51,538 nucleotides of DNA, from contig CASEKF010000053.1 in the NCBI GenBank assembly GCA_949288455.1, positions 1 through 51,538 of the forward strand, given 5' to 3'. The stretch is from an uncultured bacterium. GTDB lineage: Bacteria; Vulcanimicrobiota; CADAWZ01. A model generated the notes under the pieces. That model made no database searches. It was not told where the DNA came from and was given only the letters and a program-made list of their open reading frames with translations. Position 1 is the first letter of the stretch; each line of letters starts with the position of its first letter. Both the position numbers and the translations under genes were made by a program. Below, one piece after another: positions 39,720-46,046 of the stretch.

Positions 39720-41216
39720 TTACTTCGGAGCTTTCTTATCTTTAACGGAAGAAGCAAGTCGCCAATAATCGGGATTAAACATAACAAGCATTGGAATCAG
39801 CTCCAGCCTGCCTATAATCATAGCGAAGGACAAAATAAATTTTGAGGCCGCAGACAAATGCGAAAAATTGCCCGAAGGGCCTAAAGAATCGAATCCCAAG
39901 CCGGTATTTCCGATAGAAGTAGCTGACGCGATCAGTCCCGTCAAAACGCTGTCTTCGATCATAGAAACAACCATGGCTATAACCGCAAAAATCAAAAAAT
40001 AAAAAAAGACAAAACTCAAAATCTGCTGCCCTACAAGCGGAGAAACCGGAGCTTTATCCAATTTTATCGGAATAACCGCCTTGGGGTGAAGCATTAAAAT
40101 AAATTCCCTCTTCAAAAATTTTAACACGTAAATTATTCGTATTACCTTAATACCGCCTCCGGCAGAACCGGCTGAAGGGCCTATAAATACAAGAAACATC
40201 AGAATAATTTTAGCCTTCGCGTCCCATTCGTCATGATTAGTCGCATAAAAGCCCGTAGAAGTCATTAGAGATACGGTATGAAACAAAGCGTCCCTAAAAT
40301 TATCTATCCAAATTACTCTTGAAGGGAGTCCTTCGTCCAAGGTAATGAATATACTGATGACGAGACTTGCAATAAGTATTATAAAAAAATACGCTCTAAA
40401 TTCCGAACTTTTAAAAAGAGATTTAAAATTCCGGTGAAATATGACTTTATACTGTAAAGCGAAATTAGTTCCGCCCAAAAACATAAACACTATGCAGATC
40501 CATACTATGGCGTTACTCTTATAACCGGCTATACTGTCTTGATTAGGAGATAAACCGCCGGCGGAAATCATTGAAAAAGAATTGCACACAGCGTCGAACA
40601 AGGGCATTCCGGCGACGTACAAAAAAAACACGGAAAGAATAGAAAGTAAAAAGTAGACGAGCAGCAAATTTAAAGCGTTATACTGCATCCTTGGAGCCAA
40701 TTTCTCCTTATTCGGATTCGCGGATTCGGCAAAAAACATCTGCCTGCCTGCTACGGCAAATTGAGGAAGAATAGCTATGAACAAAACTATTATTCCCAAA
40801 CCTCCGATCCAGTGGCAAAAACTTCTCCAAAAAAACACGGCTTTAGGATAAAGGGAAAAATCGGTTATCACGGACGCTCCGCATGTAGTAATTGCGGAAG
40901 AGGATTCAAACACCGCGTCGGCAAAAGAAAAGCCGAAAAATAAGAACGGAATCGCAGCCGAAAGAGATATTAAAATCCATGCAAAAGCCACTATGCAAAG
41001 AGCTTCTTTTTTCTTTAAAGAATCAAATTTTCTCCTGGCTCCCCACACGCTATGAAATACGGCCCCTACCGCATATGTAAAAGCCGCGGAAAGAATAAAG
41101 GGATAAATCGCATAGTAATCGCCGTAATAAACTGCGGTTAAAGACGGAAAAATAAAGGTTACGCTGAAATACATCAGCGCCAAACCTATAGCGCTGGTAA
41201 TATAATCAAGTCTCAT
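39720..41216 (-). CDS. trkH: Potassium uptake channel subunit TrkH
   Basis: A 498-residue membrane protein of the TrkH/KtrB superfamily. Four pore loops with filter glycines can be seen: TTCGASVITD, SAGGLSPNQDS, TSTGFYATNHDE and SIGNTGLGFD. About ten hydrophobic helices surround them. It imports K+ with the regulator TrkA, whose gene overlaps it by 11 bases. The C-terminal GRLELIPMLVMFNPDYW is the family's usual ending. Last gene of the rhomboid-trkA-trkH operon. Confidence 0.94.
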   Translation of the reverse strand: MRLDYITSAIGLALMYFSVTFIFPSLTAVYYGDYYAIYPFILSAAFTYAVGAVFHSVWGARRKFDSLKKKEALCIVAFAWILISLSAAIPFLFFGFSFADAVFESSSAITTCGASVITDFSLYPKAVFFWRSFCHWIGGLGIIVLFIAILPQFAVAGRQMFFAESANPNKEKLAPRMQYNALNLLLVYFLLSILSVFFLYVAGMPLFDAVCNSFSMISAGGLSPNQDSIAGYKSNAIVWICIVFMFLGGTNFALQYKVIFHRNFKSLFKSSEFRAYFFIILIASLVISIFITLDEGLPSRVIWIDNFRDALFHTVSLMTSTGFYATNHDEWDAKAKIILMFLVFIGPSAGSAGGGIKVIRIIYVLKFLKREFILMLHPKAVIPIKLDKAPVSPLVGQQILSFVFFYFLIFAVIAMVVSMIEDSVLTGLIASATSIGNTGLGFDSLGPSGNFSHLSAASKFILSFAMIIGRLELIPMLVMFNPDYWRLASSVKDKKAPK

Positions 41217-42552
41217 CTGCTCTTCGGAAAAACTCCTTTACAGCCTCCGAATCGGAAGCTTTAGTAAAAACGATCATCTTATTGCCTTTGTAAAGAAAAG
41301 AATTGCCTTTAGGTATGGTGATATGCCTTCCGCGGCGCACGACTCCGATTATAGCGCTACGCGGAATGTTAAGATCCTTGATTTGCCTCGAATCAAAAGA
41401 CTCCGGAACCTCTATCTCAAGAAGTTGTCCCTGACCTCTGGCGACTACGGCCAAAAGATTCTTGTCTTTATTAATAATCTTGTTCCTTAGCTCGTTTAAA
41501 ATAGCGCGTTCCGGAGACAAAACAACGTCTACTCCCGATTTTTCGAACATTGGGATCAAAGAATCGGAAGAAGCCTTTGCAAAAATTTTTCCGGCTCCCA
41601 TCTGTCCGGCCATTATTGAACAAAAAAGATTAGTTTGGTCATTGTCGGTAACGTTGACCACAGCGTCGGATTCGCCTATTTCTTCTTCTTCAAAAAACTC
41701 ATAATCTAAAGAATTTGAATGTAGAACTAAAGTTTTAGAAAGTTTTTCGGATAGAAATTCGCATCTATCCATGTTTGTTTCTAAAATTTTAGTCTTAATT
41801 CTTACGGCCTCCAATTTTTGAGCAAGCATAAAACCTATGTTGCCTCCGCCGATAATCGCAACCGAATCAATCCTGTCGTCTCTCGTAAAAAACAAATCCC
41901 TGGCGAGCAAACTCAAACCTTTAGGACTCCCTATAAAAATAGGACGATCCCCCGCTCTAAGTTTAGTGGAACCCTTAGGGATAAAAAGTTCCCCGTCTCT
42001 TGTAAGAGCAAGCATAATCGTATCGTCGGGAAAAGAACAAGATCTTAAGTCCTTATTTATAAGAGCAGAATCATCTTTTATTTTATATTCGAAAAGACGC
42101 GCTTTCCCGCCCTCAAAATAATCGACGTAAATAGCTTCGGGAACCGAAACAATCCTAAAAATTTCCTGAACTAACGCCTCCTCGGCCCAAAGAACATGAT
42201 CTATGCCAAAGTCGGAAAGATAAGAATCATTATTATAAATATTCCTGAAATATTCCAATTTGCTTACGAAACAAACGGTTTCCGCGTCCGAAAACCTGGT
42301 AACGGCCCAAATAGCTACTATATTAGACTCATCGTAAGGGCTGCAGGATATAAAAAGATCGCATTCCTTCGCGTTAGCGGCTGCCAAAACGGCGGAATCG
42401 GAAATGTTTCCCGATATAAAATTAATATCTAATTTTTCAAATCGTGGCGGAAGATCTTCCCGCTCGTCAACAACGGTAATATCATGTTCGGAACAAAGAT
42501 CTTTTATTATAAGAAAAGAAATGTCCGTCAATCCGTAGATAAGTATTCTCAT
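41206..42552 (-). CDS. trkA: Potassium uptake regulator TrkA
   Basis: A 448-residue cytoplasmic regulator of TrkH with two RCK/TrkA-N plus TrkA-C units. The second Rossmann motif is intact (AIIGGGNIGFML, Gly235-Gly240), but the first is degenerate: MRILIYGLTDISFL lacks the Gly-x-Gly-x-x-Gly pattern. NAD(H) control may thus act mainly through the second unit. It lies 3 bp after the rhomboid gene and overlaps trkH. Confidence 0.93.
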   Translation of the reverse strand: MRILIYGLTDISFLIIKDLCSEHDITVVDEREDLPPRFEKLDINFISGNISDSAVLAAANAKECDLFISCSPYDESNIVAIWAVTRFSDAETVCFVSKLEYFRNIYNNDSYLSDFGIDHVLWAEEALVQEIFRIVSVPEAIYVDYFEGGKARLFEYKIKDDSALINKDLRSCSFPDDTIMLALTRDGELFIPKGSTKLRAGDRPIFIGSPKGLSLLARDLFFTRDDRIDSVAIIGGGNIGFMLAQKLEAVRIKTKILETNMDRCEFLSEKLSKTLVLHSNSLDYEFFEEEEIGESDAVVNVTDNDQTNLFCSIMAGQMGAGKIFAKASSDSLIPMFEKSGVDVVLSPERAILNELRNKIINKDKNLLAVVARGQGQLLEIEVPESFDSRQIKDLNIPRSAIIGVVRRGRHITIPKGNSFLYKGNKMIVFTKASDSEAVKEFFRRADET

Positions 42553-42555
42553 CTG

Positions 42556-43377
42556 TTATCGCCTCAAAAGTCGAATAGTGTAAATATATAAAAATCCCGC
42601 TATACCGCCGCCAAGATGAGCCCACATATTAATATTCGGAACAAACAAACCAAACGCAAAATTTACGGCAACCCAAAACAGGAGCTGATTAATAATCACT
42701 CTGTCAAAAAGACGAAATCTTAAATAAAGAGCAAAATAAGCCGTCATAACGCCGAAAAGAGCTCCGGAAGCTCCTACCGAAAAAGCGTCTGGCATAAAAA
42801 TCATACTGACGACAAAACCTGTTACTCCCGATACGAAATAAAGGGATAAAAATTTTATTCTTCCCAAAATTTGCTCTAACGTAGGTCCCAAAATATACAG
42901 ACAATACATATTAAAAAGCAAATGAAGAGGAGAACCATGCAAAAACATAGCCGTTATAATTCTCCATAACTGACCTTCAAGGAACCAAGGAGAATAGAAA
43001 ACTCCAAACTCAAAAAATTTATTACCGGAGCCGAAAAGCATACCGCTCATCAAAGTTAATAAAAAACTTAAGGCGATAAGAGATAAAGAAACTACAGGCT
43101 TCTTGGGAATAAAAGCGACATAAACTTGACGATCTTCCTGTTTCTCGGAAGATTTAATAATACGAGGCTGAAATTCTAAAACACCTTTTCCGGAACAAAC
43201 TTCACAATCAGGAGAGCATTCTATCTTGCCTTTTCCGGAACACTCGGAACATTTAACGGATTTAACTTCGCCAGTTCCGCCGCAAGAAGCGCAAGTCGTA
43301 AAACCGGCTCCGCCGCATTCTATACATTTTCCGCTGCCGCCGCATCGGGGACATTCTGAAATATTGTTGTCTTCCAT
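42556..43377 (-). CDS. Rhomboid protease fused to a DnaJ-type zinc finger
   Basis: A 273-residue protein. Residues 9-65 hold repeated Cys-x-x-Cys-x-Gly-x-Gly motifs (CPRCGGSG, CIECGGAG, CASCGGTG, CSECSGKG, CEVCSGKG), as in the DnaJ zinc domain. Residues about 95-270 are a six-helix rhomboid: HGSPLHLLFNM (His147, Asn156), the catalytic Ser204 in GASGA and His254 in WAHLGGG. The protease core should be active. Zinc domains of this sort bind unfolded protein, so the fusion may present misfolded membrane substrates. First gene of the trk operon. Confidence 0.9.
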   Translation of the reverse strand: MEDNNISECPRCGGSGKCIECGGAGFTTCASCGGTGEVKSVKCSECSGKGKIECSPDCEVCSGKGVLEFQPRIIKSSEKQEDRQVYVAFIPKKPVVSLSLIALSFLLTLMSGMLFGSGNKFFEFGVFYSPWFLEGQLWRIITAMFLHGSPLHLLFNMYCLYILGPTLEQILGRIKFLSLYFVSGVTGFVVSMIFMPDAFSVGASGALFGVMTAYFALYLRFRLFDRVIINQLLFWVAVNFAFGLFVPNINMWAHLGGGIAGFLYIYTIRLLRR

Positions 43378-43439: not shown

Positions 43440-44393
43440 CTAAAATAAAGACGGATAAAACGCCTTGCAAAGACAAAACGTTCCAAACGATAAAAGGAAC
43501 GCAAAAACAGGAACTACTAACCAACCTAAAATAATACTTCGCAAATTTCTCGCCTTAATGGATTTTACGCCTCTGATTAAACCAATGCCAACTATCGCGC
43601 CTATTAAAGCCTGAGTAAGCGAAACCGGAATTCCTATAAAAGCGAAAAAATGAACGGTTAAAGCTTCGGCGAGAACGGCGGCAAAAGCGGAAAAAGAATC
43701 CAAACGCACAATACCATGGCCGACGGTATCGACGATTCTTTTGCTAAAAGTGGCTATTCCCGCAAGAATAAATACGCCGCCAAGAAAAGCCGCCTGAAAA
43801 GGAGTTAAAGCTCCCGAACTTACGAATACCGCGCCGACGTTAGCCACGGTATTGGCGCCCATGGCGTAAGAGGCGTAACAGCCGACAGCAATTAAACTTA
43901 TTCTGTAAAAAATATCTCTTTGAAATATATTAAAATTAAACCTATTTATGATTTGTCCCAAAATGAAATACAGAGGAACGGCTAAAATACAAGCGAGAAT
44001 CGGAGTGGCCAACCAACATAAAAAAACGCGCCCAAAAGCAGACAAACTAAAAGTTCCCGTAACAACCGCAATTCCGGCAATACTCCCGACTACGGCTTGA
44101 GAAGTAGGAATAGGCAATTTAAAAAAATTAAGAACGGTTATCGCAATCGCGGCGGCTATGGACGAAATAAAAGCCGTGGCAAGAGATTGGGAAGTTAAAG
44201 AACCTATAGTTTCAATACCTTGATAACCTTGAAAAAGACACCCGGCAAGACAAAATAAACAGGCCAAAATAACGCCATGCCAATATCGCACCATTTTAGC
44301 CGATACGGCAGCTCCAAATAAAGCCGCAAAATCCATTCCTCCGATAGACCAGCCAAGAAAAGCTCCGCCGAGAAAATGTAAAGGAGAAAACAA
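43440..44393 (-). CDS. PiT-family inorganic anion permease
   Basis: A 317-residue membrane protein with about 9 helices and the two-fold PiT repeat. The usual GANDVAN motifs are changed: the first is GGMDFAALFG (18-27) and the second GANTVANVGA (179-188), with Thr where Asp is common. LPIPTSQAVVGSIAG and IPVSLTQALIGAIVG mark each half. PiT proteins carry phosphate, some sulfate; the changed Asp makes the substrate uncertain. It is 3 bp after the PhoU-like gene, the normal PiT partner. Confidence 0.85.
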   Translation of the reverse strand: MFSPLHFLGGAFLGWSIGGMDFAALFGAAVSAKMVRYWHGVILACLFCLAGCLFQGYQGIETIGSLTSQSLATAFISSIAAAIAITVLNFFKLPIPTSQAVVGSIAGIAVVTGTFSLSAFGRVFLCWLATPILACILAVPLYFILGQIINRFNFNIFQRDIFYRISLIAVGCYASYAMGANTVANVGAVFVSSGALTPFQAAFLGGVFILAGIATFSKRIVDTVGHGIVRLDSFSAFAAVLAEALTVHFFAFIGIPVSLTQALIGAIVGIGLIRGVKSIKARNLRSIILGWLVVPVFAFLLSFGTFCLCKAFYPSLF

Positions 44394-44396
44394 AAC

Positions 44397-45038
44397 TTAA
44401 ATTTGCCCCTTTACGCTGACGATAACGGATAAATCAGACAGATGCTCGCAAGAATCGCTCACCGCTCCAAGACGCTCGACAAAATATTTAAGAAGGACCT
44501 TATTTCCGGAGTCAACGGAGAGTTTAAAAACAGACGAAATTATATTTCGTTCTAAAATATCGCAGCGGCTTTCTATTTGATCTATTTTTTCGGCTAATTC
44601 AAAAACTTTTTCTTTCTTTGAAAAAACGGATAAAAAACAATCTGCGGCATATTCGGCGGCATTGGAGGATTCGTCGGCCAAACGCGATAAGTCGCCTGAA
44701 ATTACTTTAGGAAAACGCAAATCGCAAGTCTGAATTTCAAATAAAACAGACTGCATAAAACCCGGAATTTTTTCAGCTAACTCAATTAATCGCAGTATAT
44801 CTCCTCTAGACTCAGGAAGAATTGTCTTTGAATACATCTCATAAGCGACTTCCCGCTTAATCGAGTCCATCTTGGATTCTATCTCATGCGTGCCGGCTAC
44901 TAAAGCGGAAAATTCATCGTTAAAGCCGTCTGCAAGAAAAACCGAAAAACCTAAACGAAATGAAGCCGCGGAAGTTTTTAAAAGTTTTATATATTCGTTA
45001 ATAAGAACTTCTATTTTTTTCTGACGGCTAAAAAACAC
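44397..45038 (-). CDS. PhoU-like DUF47 regulator of the PiT permease
   Basis: A 213-residue, all-helical protein of the DUF47/TIGR00153 family. Typical traits: an N-terminal FFSRQKKIEVLINEYIKLL, an E-x-x-D-style helix (THEIESKMDSIKREV) and later LPESRGDILRLIELAEKIP. These proteins are co-encoded with PiT permeases and probably control them. It begins 5 bp after the DUF4416-like gene. Confidence 0.88.
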   Translation of the reverse strand: MFFSRQKKIEVLINEYIKLLKTSAASFRLGFSVFLADGFNDEFSALVAGTHEIESKMDSIKREVAYEMYSKTILPESRGDILRLIELAEKIPGFMQSVLFEIQTCDLRFPKVISGDLSRLADESSNAAEYAADCFLSVFSKKEKVFELAEKIDQIESRCDILERNIISSVFKLSVDSGNKVLLKYFVERLGAVSDSCEHLSDLSVIVSVKGQI

Positions 45039-45043
45039 TGGTT

Positions 45044-45592
45044 TTACCTCGGTTCGTTTTTATTTAGCATATTGAGCTGATCGGCATATAAGCTCCTGAG
45101 ATAATTAAAATAAGAAATATATTCGGCGGAAGCATAATCCGAATAAGTCCACTCCCAAGGTCTAAACGTTTTTCTGCGATAATAAAGAGTTGTCTCCGCA
45201 AAAATTCCCTTTCCGATATGAATCCTATGAGGACGCTCTTTTACGGAAGCTAACGCTATTTTGGAAAGAGCCATGTAACCCGGATCAAGATTAATTCTTC
45301 TTCTGCCGCATTCGTCCGAAAAGAGCAATTCCAAATCGTTCGTACACAATTTGACTTCTGAAAGTTCTAAAGCGTCAATTAAAGAATCAAAGGAATAGAA
45401 TTTTCTGAAAATGCCGACTCCAAGTTCCTCATCGTAAAAATCAGTATATGAAAACGGGATCAAATCGCTTGCGGAATCAATCTTGCCAAACGAATTTTCA
45501 AGATAAGGCCTGACTTTTTCAAACTCCGAAATATCGGAGGCAAGCATGCCTACAAATAACTTAACTTTATCTACAGGCTTAACAAGGCCCAT
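45044..45592 (-). CDS. DUF4416 family protein
   Basis: A 182-residue protein. KVKLFVGMLASD, FSYTDFYDEELGVGIFRKF, RRINLDPGYMALSKI and HRIHIGKGIFAETTLYY with WEWTYSDYAS match DUF4416, a conserved family without known function. The start at 45592 is chosen because it sits 1 base after the stop of the upstream gene (TAAaATG), whereas the longer frame runs inside that gene. Part of the four-gene operon with the permease. Confidence 0.85.
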   Translation of the reverse strand: MGLVKPVDKVKLFVGMLASDISEFEKVRPYLENSFGKIDSASDLIPFSYTDFYDEELGVGIFRKFYSFDSLIDALELSEVKLCTNDLELLFSDECGRRRINLDPGYMALSKIALASVKERPHRIHIGKGIFAETTLYYRRKTFRPWEWTYSDYASAEYISYFNYLRSLYADQLNMLNKNEPR

Positions 45593-45593
45593 T

Positions 45594-46046
45594 TTATTCG
45601 GCTTTCTTTTTATTTTTGGCTTTCGCGCTTTTTTTAGCCGGTTCCTCTCCGGGCATAGTCGTAACAACAGAACTATCCGCTAAAGGCAATTTAATCTCCG
45701 CTTTTGAAATAGAACTCAAATCCGCTTTGGGAAGAGAACTTAAATCTATTTTGGGAAGAGACGCTAAAGCTTCTTTCTTAGTTTGAAGCAGCGATCCCAA
45801 CGGCAATTCAATCCTTTTCTGAACGCATGCGTCGCCGTCCTGATTCGACTCGCAAACGGGAATTTCATTGCCTTCAGACAAATCGACGATTCTTTTATAT
45901 GTCTCGGTAATAAAATTTAAAACTTCCTCGTTAGTCGGGGTAAAAAGAGGAACTACGCCCTTCTGCCTTCTTATCGAAAGATCGGTCTTGTATGCGTTGA
46001 GCCAGGCCACAGTTATATCTTTTGTTATTTCAAGTTCTTTTGACAT
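45594..46046 (-). CDS. Conserved protein with short Leu/Pro/Ser repeats
   Basis: A 150-residue protein. The N-terminal 55 residues (ITKDITVAWLNAYKTDLS, EEVLNFITETYKRIVDL) look like a small helical conserved domain; residues about 90-120 contain repeats of the type LPKIDLSS/LPKADLSS/ISKAEIKLP; the last 15 residues are Lys-rich. No signal or membrane segment. It heads the operon leading to the PiT permease, behind AAGGAG. Function unknown. Confidence 0.65.
   Translation of the reverse strand: MSKELEITKDITVAWLNAYKTDLSIRRQKGVVPLFTPTNEEVLNFITETYKRIVDLSEGNEIPVCESNQDGDACVQKRIELPLGSLLQTKKEALASLPKIDLSSLPKADLSSISKAEIKLPLADSSVVTTMPGEEPAKKSAKAKNKKKAE

Follow-up and report, generated by a model that had tools for sequence, protein, structure and literature searches.

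In most bacteria the function of rhomboid proteases is poorly understood, and what their extramembrane domains do is largely guesswork. One described case is YqgP (GluP) of B. subtilis, whose N-terminal domain has a restriction-endonuclease-like fold with weak metal binding; without this domain MgtE is neither cleaved in a metal-dependent way nor presented to FtsH (PMC7231995). The YqgP/FtsH system has been likened by its discoverers to eukaryotic ERAD. Zinc-finger rhomboids, mycobacterial and streptomycete, are known in actinobacteria (PMC2989971; PMC4467639). A DnaJ-type zinc domain without a J domain is found in ORANGE, which has predicted transmembrane segments and is described as having holdase activity and stabilizing its clients (PMC12063368).

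We analyzed a stretch of DNA of 51,538 nucleotides (hereafter, the window) that encodes a protein joining an N-terminal cysteine-rich domain, related to the zinc domain of DnaJ, to a rhomboid. The relevant features are:

42556..43377, reverse strand: zinc-domain/rhomboid fusion gene, 273 aa (ORF list, ATG start, Pfam Rhomboid)
43174..43359, reverse strand: 11-cysteine zinc-type domain, residues 7-68 (alignment, cysteine spacing, hhalign to the DnaJ central domain)
42574..42975, reverse strand: rhomboid domain core, residues 135-268, with H147, H152, N156, S204 and H254 (Pfam, structural model, alignment)

The fusion resembles YqgP in consisting of a rhomboid and an N-terminal domain that is predicted to be cytosolic. 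The two N-terminal domains are, however, unrelated in sequence and in the fold described for YqgP; where a YqgP-type domain was looked for in the fusion, the N-terminus proved to be the 11-cysteine domain. A transporter, MgtE, is the known client of YqgP, whereas transporter genes are only neighbors of the fusion. Rhomboid loci of Bacilli, among the matches listed, have long N-termini that lack motifs of this kind. The actinobacterial rhomboids are similar to the fusion in that an N-terminal zinc-finger-like domain is followed by a rhomboid of the active type, but their cysteine/histidine pattern is B-box-like, the fusion has the five-motif 11-cysteine domain (by inspection), and the two are separate in the tree. 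At least two CxxC motifs precede the rhomboid in 18 of the best 80 loci listed, most of them actinomycete by title. ORANGE and BSD2 share with the fusion a DnaJ-type zinc domain without a J domain; they differ in having four CxxCxGxG motifs, in belonging to plant plastids and in carrying no protease, where the fusion has five motifs and a rhomboid. GlpG has the same fold and catalytic pair but another cytosolic domain. Zinc-finger rhomboids as such are thus already known, and what appears to be new is the 11-cysteine, DnaJ-related variety. A rhomboid fused to a DnaJ, zinc or CXXCXGXG domain was not found described in the literature searched, in which subscription papers were thinly covered, and a term search of the main text of a recent rhomboid review (PMC12615303) found neither zinc nor DnaJ.

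The C-terminal part of the protein is classed as a rhomboid on the grounds of its Pfam score, its catalytic residues and its modeled GlpG-like six-helix fold. Pfam Rhomboid (PF01694) matches residues 135-268 at 135.5 bits (1.9e-39), against a curated cut-off of 22.6, and this is the sole PF01694 match in the window's genome, which is 98.86% complete. The HxxxxHxxxN motif of helix 2 (H147, H152, N156), the GxS motif (S204) and the HxGG motif (H254) are kept in 26/26 fusion rows of the alignment. The AF2 model places six transmembrane helices in residues 95-267, with pLDDT at 84-96 in ten-residue blocks from 91 to 270 except for loop 1 (66-68), and it superimposes on E. coli GlpG (5f5j) with Z 21.7 and rmsd 2.4 over 174 residues. 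iRhoms and Derlins also align to the model, as membership of the superfamily would predict. By these predictions the protein is a rhomboid protease of the active type with its catalytic Ser/His pair intact, which agrees with the original prediction of an open reading frame here with five CxxC motifs ahead of a rhomboid and with Ser204 and His254 in place (ORF list, Pfam, alignment). More specific memberships were rejected, since the scores were 45.3 bits for rhombosortase (TIGR03902; NCBIfam cut-off 84) and 50.3 bits for the GlpG equivalog (cut-off 250). Lysines and arginines number 7, 2, 3, and 3 in the loops of the cytosolic side and 2, 0, and 0 in those outside. Under the positive-inside rule this distribution puts the N-terminus inside, so the zinc domain should face the cytosol.

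The five CxxC motifs (C9-C12, C18-C21, C29-C32, C43-C46, and C58-C61) are CxxCxGxG-like and are accompanied by an eleventh cysteine, C54, which had previously gone uncounted. All 11 cysteines are invariant among the 19 aligned relatives of the fusion profile (A3), as are many glycines of the domain, at an overall identity of 30-54%. The spacing C-x2-C-x5-C-x2-C-x7-C-x2-C-x(7-19)-C-x2-C-x7-C-x3-C-x2-C is held in 21/21 of the fusion genes checked against this pattern. It is also found in 26 tree-labeled fusion rows, a count that is not independent because the labels came from a near-identical pattern. The invariance of the cysteines in the 19 rows and the constancy of their spacing in the 21 genes argue that the array is not a product of chance.

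The relationship of this domain to DnaJ is visible at the level of profiles. hhalign of the domain against four DnaJ domains gives a probability of 96.3%; the four DnaJ motifs find their counterparts, in order, in motifs 1, 3, 4, and 5 of the domain, and motif 2 has none. Among solved structures, the domain profile matches yeast MAS5 (2.2e-5), the E. coli DnaJ zinc domain (2.6e-5), RtpA (0.003) and BSD2 (0.0053). The Pfam DnaJ central domain (PF00684) matches all 20 domain members at E up to 0.1, and BSD2_CRD matches 15/20; for the window's protein PF00684 scores 15.9 bits over the whole length (0.016) and 18.4 for the domain alone, short of the cut-off of 32.7. The four CxxCxGxG motifs with DnaJ spacing that would mark a standard domain were looked for, and five motifs and an eleventh cysteine were found instead. 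In two DnaJs of the same phylum the gaps between motifs are 9, 18, and 6, unlike those of the fusion. The description of the domain as DnaJ-type, as originally proposed, therefore holds as profile-level homology, but not in the Pfam score, the motif number or the spacing. By sequence comparison the domain is a non-standard relative of the DnaJ zinc domain and comprises eight DnaJ-type cysteines and three extra ones (C18, C21, C54). We read it as DnaJ-derived, with one CxxC inserted and one further cysteine added, and infer that it binds two or three metals. Two attempts to model the zinc domain with AF2 gave no usable model (pLDDT 36). Pfam finds no J domain in the fusion protein; a separate DnaJ is encoded in the same genome.

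The fusion is conserved within a limited part of the phylum. The A3 profile (19 rows; L022 of G015, L008 and L014 left out) matches from the zinc domain through the rhomboid in 23 of the phylum's 149 genomes. These include every genome sampled of six families, namely f1, to which the window belongs (4 genomes), f2 (1), f11 (3), f12 (6), f13 (8), and f15 (1). In the 126 genomes of the remaining ten families (f3-f10, f14, f16) no fusion was found, and plain rhomboids are present in most. The zinc domain used as a profile by itself (A6; 20 rows, without L022 and without L021, which is identical to L020) finds 25 places at E 1e-8 or better, all in the same 23 genomes. Of these, 24 are fusion rhomboids and one is a second copy in G015 with a truncated rhomboid; at this threshold no zinc domain apart from a rhomboid was found in the 149 genomes. 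At one further locus (G046:C409) the full-length A3 model matches from position 7, and the zinc-domain model has no match at 1e-8. Of the condition originally named as counting against the idea, a fusion both widespread and characterized, half applies: it is conserved across six families, but literature searches found no description of it.

Beyond the phylum, A3 was run at 1e-46 against two others, that of a Gemmataceae locus (294 genomes) and that of a Chloracidobacterium locus (396 genomes), and matched nothing in either, the A3 search of the 149 genomes serving as the positive control for this threshold. Patterns from the closest five proteins found at least 80 loci in 84,980 species genomes, and among the matches listed only G003 aligned from residue 1. 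Rhomboid-type matches occurred in 27 plasmid records, the best-covering among the best 10 of the 27 beginning at residue 41, and none of 19 relatives on viral contigs aligned before residue 58.

In a tree of the rhomboid domain with 56 rows, from which the two G015 rows and two duplicates had been removed, the 22 fusion rows form one side of a branch with 99/98 support that recurs in 98% of bootstrap trees, and the fusion label needs one change. When G015 is kept, it stands apart on a branch of length 2.21 and the label needs two. The simplest reading of these trees is a single origin of the fusion followed by vertical descent.

The second copy in G015 (L159:2764-4587) is one open frame in which the zinc domain is followed by only part of a rhomboid (profile positions 2-63) and which also encodes a flavin amine oxidase. 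It is the one observation that might favor regarding the fusion as degenerate or as an artefact of annotation, either two genes run together in one frame or a pseudoprotease; the window gene shows no sign of either. The fusion is read in a single frame in all 23 genomes, which represent 14 genera, with one stop in G022 at the edge of the matched stretch, and its catalytic residues are present in all 26 rows. The artefact reading, to which we give practically no credence, is refuted for the fusion itself.

The genes around the fusion include those of putative transporters:

41206..42552, reverse strand: trkA-like gene, 448 aa (NCBIfam NF007039, 337 bits against 293; synteny)
39720..41216, reverse strand: trkH-like gene, 498 aa (Pfam TrkH, 5.1e-56; synteny, distribution)
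43440..44393, reverse strand: divergent PHO4-family transporter gene, 317 aa (Pfam PHO4, 6.4e-47; synteny, tree)
44397..45038, reverse strand: PhoU-like gene (DUF47, PhoU_div), 213 aa (Pfam PhoU_div, 1.7e-21; synteny)
45044..45667, reverse strand: DUF4416 gene, ORF as listed, whose true start may be internal (Pfam DUF4416, 1.3e-53; synteny)

The trkA gene lies 3 bp downstream of the fusion and overlaps trkH by 11 bp, and, judging by gene spacing, the three may be co-transcribed. Promoter-like and terminator-like sites show no excess in the window (13 against a shuffle mean of 15.6, and 8 against 11.3, respectively). The PHO4-family gene is 62 bp upstream of the fusion on the same strand, with the PhoU-like and DUF4416 genes beyond it; none of these three had been mentioned before. 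The best NCBIfam match of the PHO4-family protein, a sulfate permease, reaches 103.4 bits against a cut-off of 400, so the ion it carries is uncertain. This protein (43440-44393) belongs to a strongly diverged clade (5 rows, 100/100, branch 6.8), apart from the other PHO4 of the genome, and its substrate may be other than phosphate.

We surveyed 20 flanks of the fusion besides the window, some of them on short contigs, and found no neighbor common to all. The DUF4416 and PHO4 genes precede the fusion in G001-G004, and the PhoU-like gene in G002-G004. In the PHO4 tree, the linked proteins from f1 and f2 group in a separate clade (100/100) with a very long stem. PHO4 was considered as an ancestral partner and rejected: G046 (f11) also has a PHO4 gene close to the fusion, but by the same tree it belongs to another type, so the PHO4/PhoU-like link is claimed for f1 and f2 only. 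The order fusion-trkA-trkH occurs in the window, G002 and G003, and fusion-trkA in G001, where the contig ends after trkA. In the f2 genome, G004, a periplasmic-binding-protein gene is found downstream of the fusion, where f1 has trk. Trk genes of the window's type are lacking near the fusion in 17/20 other flanks, some on short contigs; the trk link is confined to f1, the window's own family. In a Pfam search, TrkH-family proteins are present in 15/23 fusion genomes, and five of the 8 genomes without them are at least 93% complete. This search was used as a fairer measure than an earlier query with the window's TrkH alone, which had found 3/22 genomes. The PHO4 family is present in 22/23 fusion genomes and an FtsH-type M41 peptidase in all 23.

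These distributions bear on a proposal hinted at in the original prediction, in which the fusion would serve specifically to control K+ uptake by cutting TrkH or a partner protein. The tight gene order in the window, G002 and G003, with its shorter form in G001, is what such a role might produce. The absence of the order from most of the flanks surveyed, some on short contigs, and the presence of the TrkH family in only 15 of 23 genomes mean, however, that TrkH cannot be the general substrate. The link to trk, whose absence in relatives had been named as grounds for abandoning it, is indeed missing outside f1, and we regard a dedicated K+ regulator as very unlikely. The other part of the proposal, a role in quality control, is plausible and is preferred here by analogy with YqgP/FtsH and ORANGE.

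We tentatively favor, with somewhat less than even confidence, a rhomboid for the quality control of membrane proteins, with a chaperone-like zinc arm in the cytosol that recruits its substrates and with products that pass to an FtsH-like protease. In this model the 11-cysteine domain would bind two or three zinc ions, recognize cytosolic segments of membrane proteins that are unfolded or unassembled, in the manner of DnaJ-type zinc domains, and keep the bound clients close to the intramembrane active site. The rhomboid would then cleave their exposed transmembrane helices, and the fragments would be handed to a processive protease such as FtsH, in analogy to YqgP of B. subtilis. The PHO4-like and Trk transporters of the window's family would be at most favored clients rather than defining substrates. 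A joint function of the two domains is argued by the finding of the zinc domain only beside a rhomboid, in its 25 places, and by the occurrence of the fusion throughout six families. Neighbors that differ between families are expected of a general role rather than one with a single client, although the transporter operon of f1 and f2 might point to one specific client and so count against generality. FtsH is near-universal in bacteria, so its presence in the 23 fusion genomes is weak support for the hand-over.

A less probable, though still appreciable, alternative gives the N-terminal domain the role of sensing metal or redox state. Its DnaJ-type core would hold two zinc sites, and C18, C21, and C54 would make an extra, more labile site through whose metal loading or oxidation the rhomboid is turned on or off, for instance to remove ion transporters under metal or oxidative stress. 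The 11 invariant and rigidly spaced cysteines, three beyond those of DnaJ, would suit such a role, as would the motif 2 that hhalign leaves unpaired, the transporter genes adjoining the fusion in f1 and f2, and the precedent of YqgP, in which N-terminal metal binding activates transporter cleavage (PMC7231995). Against it, AF2 gave no confident structure by which the cysteines of the domain could be assigned to metal sites, and a comparable transporter operon was not seen in the four remaining families that have the fusion. The two ideas can be merged into a proteostasis receptor on one polypeptide, in which the domain would both bind misfolded clients and sense metal or redox state and would thereby gate the rhomboid, having arisen once in the clade and been kept as an indivisible unit. 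Such a domain would probably have three metals, a DnaJ-type two-zinc core and the added three-cysteine site; we consider this combined form rather unlikely. Somewhat more doubtful still is a purely structural or oligomerization module without client binding or sensing. The zinc fingers of Streptomyces rhomboid families A and B, for which an effect on oligomeric state has been proposed (PMC4467639), point in this direction, together with a weak score to Anti-TRAP, a small zinc protein with a similar motif (21.9 bits against a cut-off of 65). The invariance of 11 cysteines and many glycines at 30-54% identity is tighter than a dimerization module seems to need, a soft argument against it.

A conserved chaperone-type zinc module joined to an intact rhomboid offers a direct and testable link from unfolded-protein binding or metal sensing to intramembrane proteolysis. 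The fusion also provides an independent case to compare with YqgP/FtsH.

Some further observations concern the neighborhoods. Genes for a squalene/phytoene synthase and an EamA protein lie upstream of the fusion in G048 and also upstream of the second copy in G015, both f11 genomes, in both cases directly (L036:1735-4522 and L159:2764-6033). Plant ORANGE, which likewise carries a DnaJ-type zinc domain, acts on phytoene synthase, a parallel that is possibly a coincidence. In the f12 loci surveyed, a gene without a Pfam match adjoins the fusion, and a divergently oriented lytic transglycosylase gene is often found there too; the former gene (L042:8289-9380) has counterparts in G018, G032 and G038, also adjoining the fusion, with products of 330-500 aa (no Pfam match in the one scanned). 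In f1 the DUF4416 gene (45044-45667) is accompanied by a gene of 150 aa (45594-46046) without a Pfam match, and the order of the two is conserved within the family.
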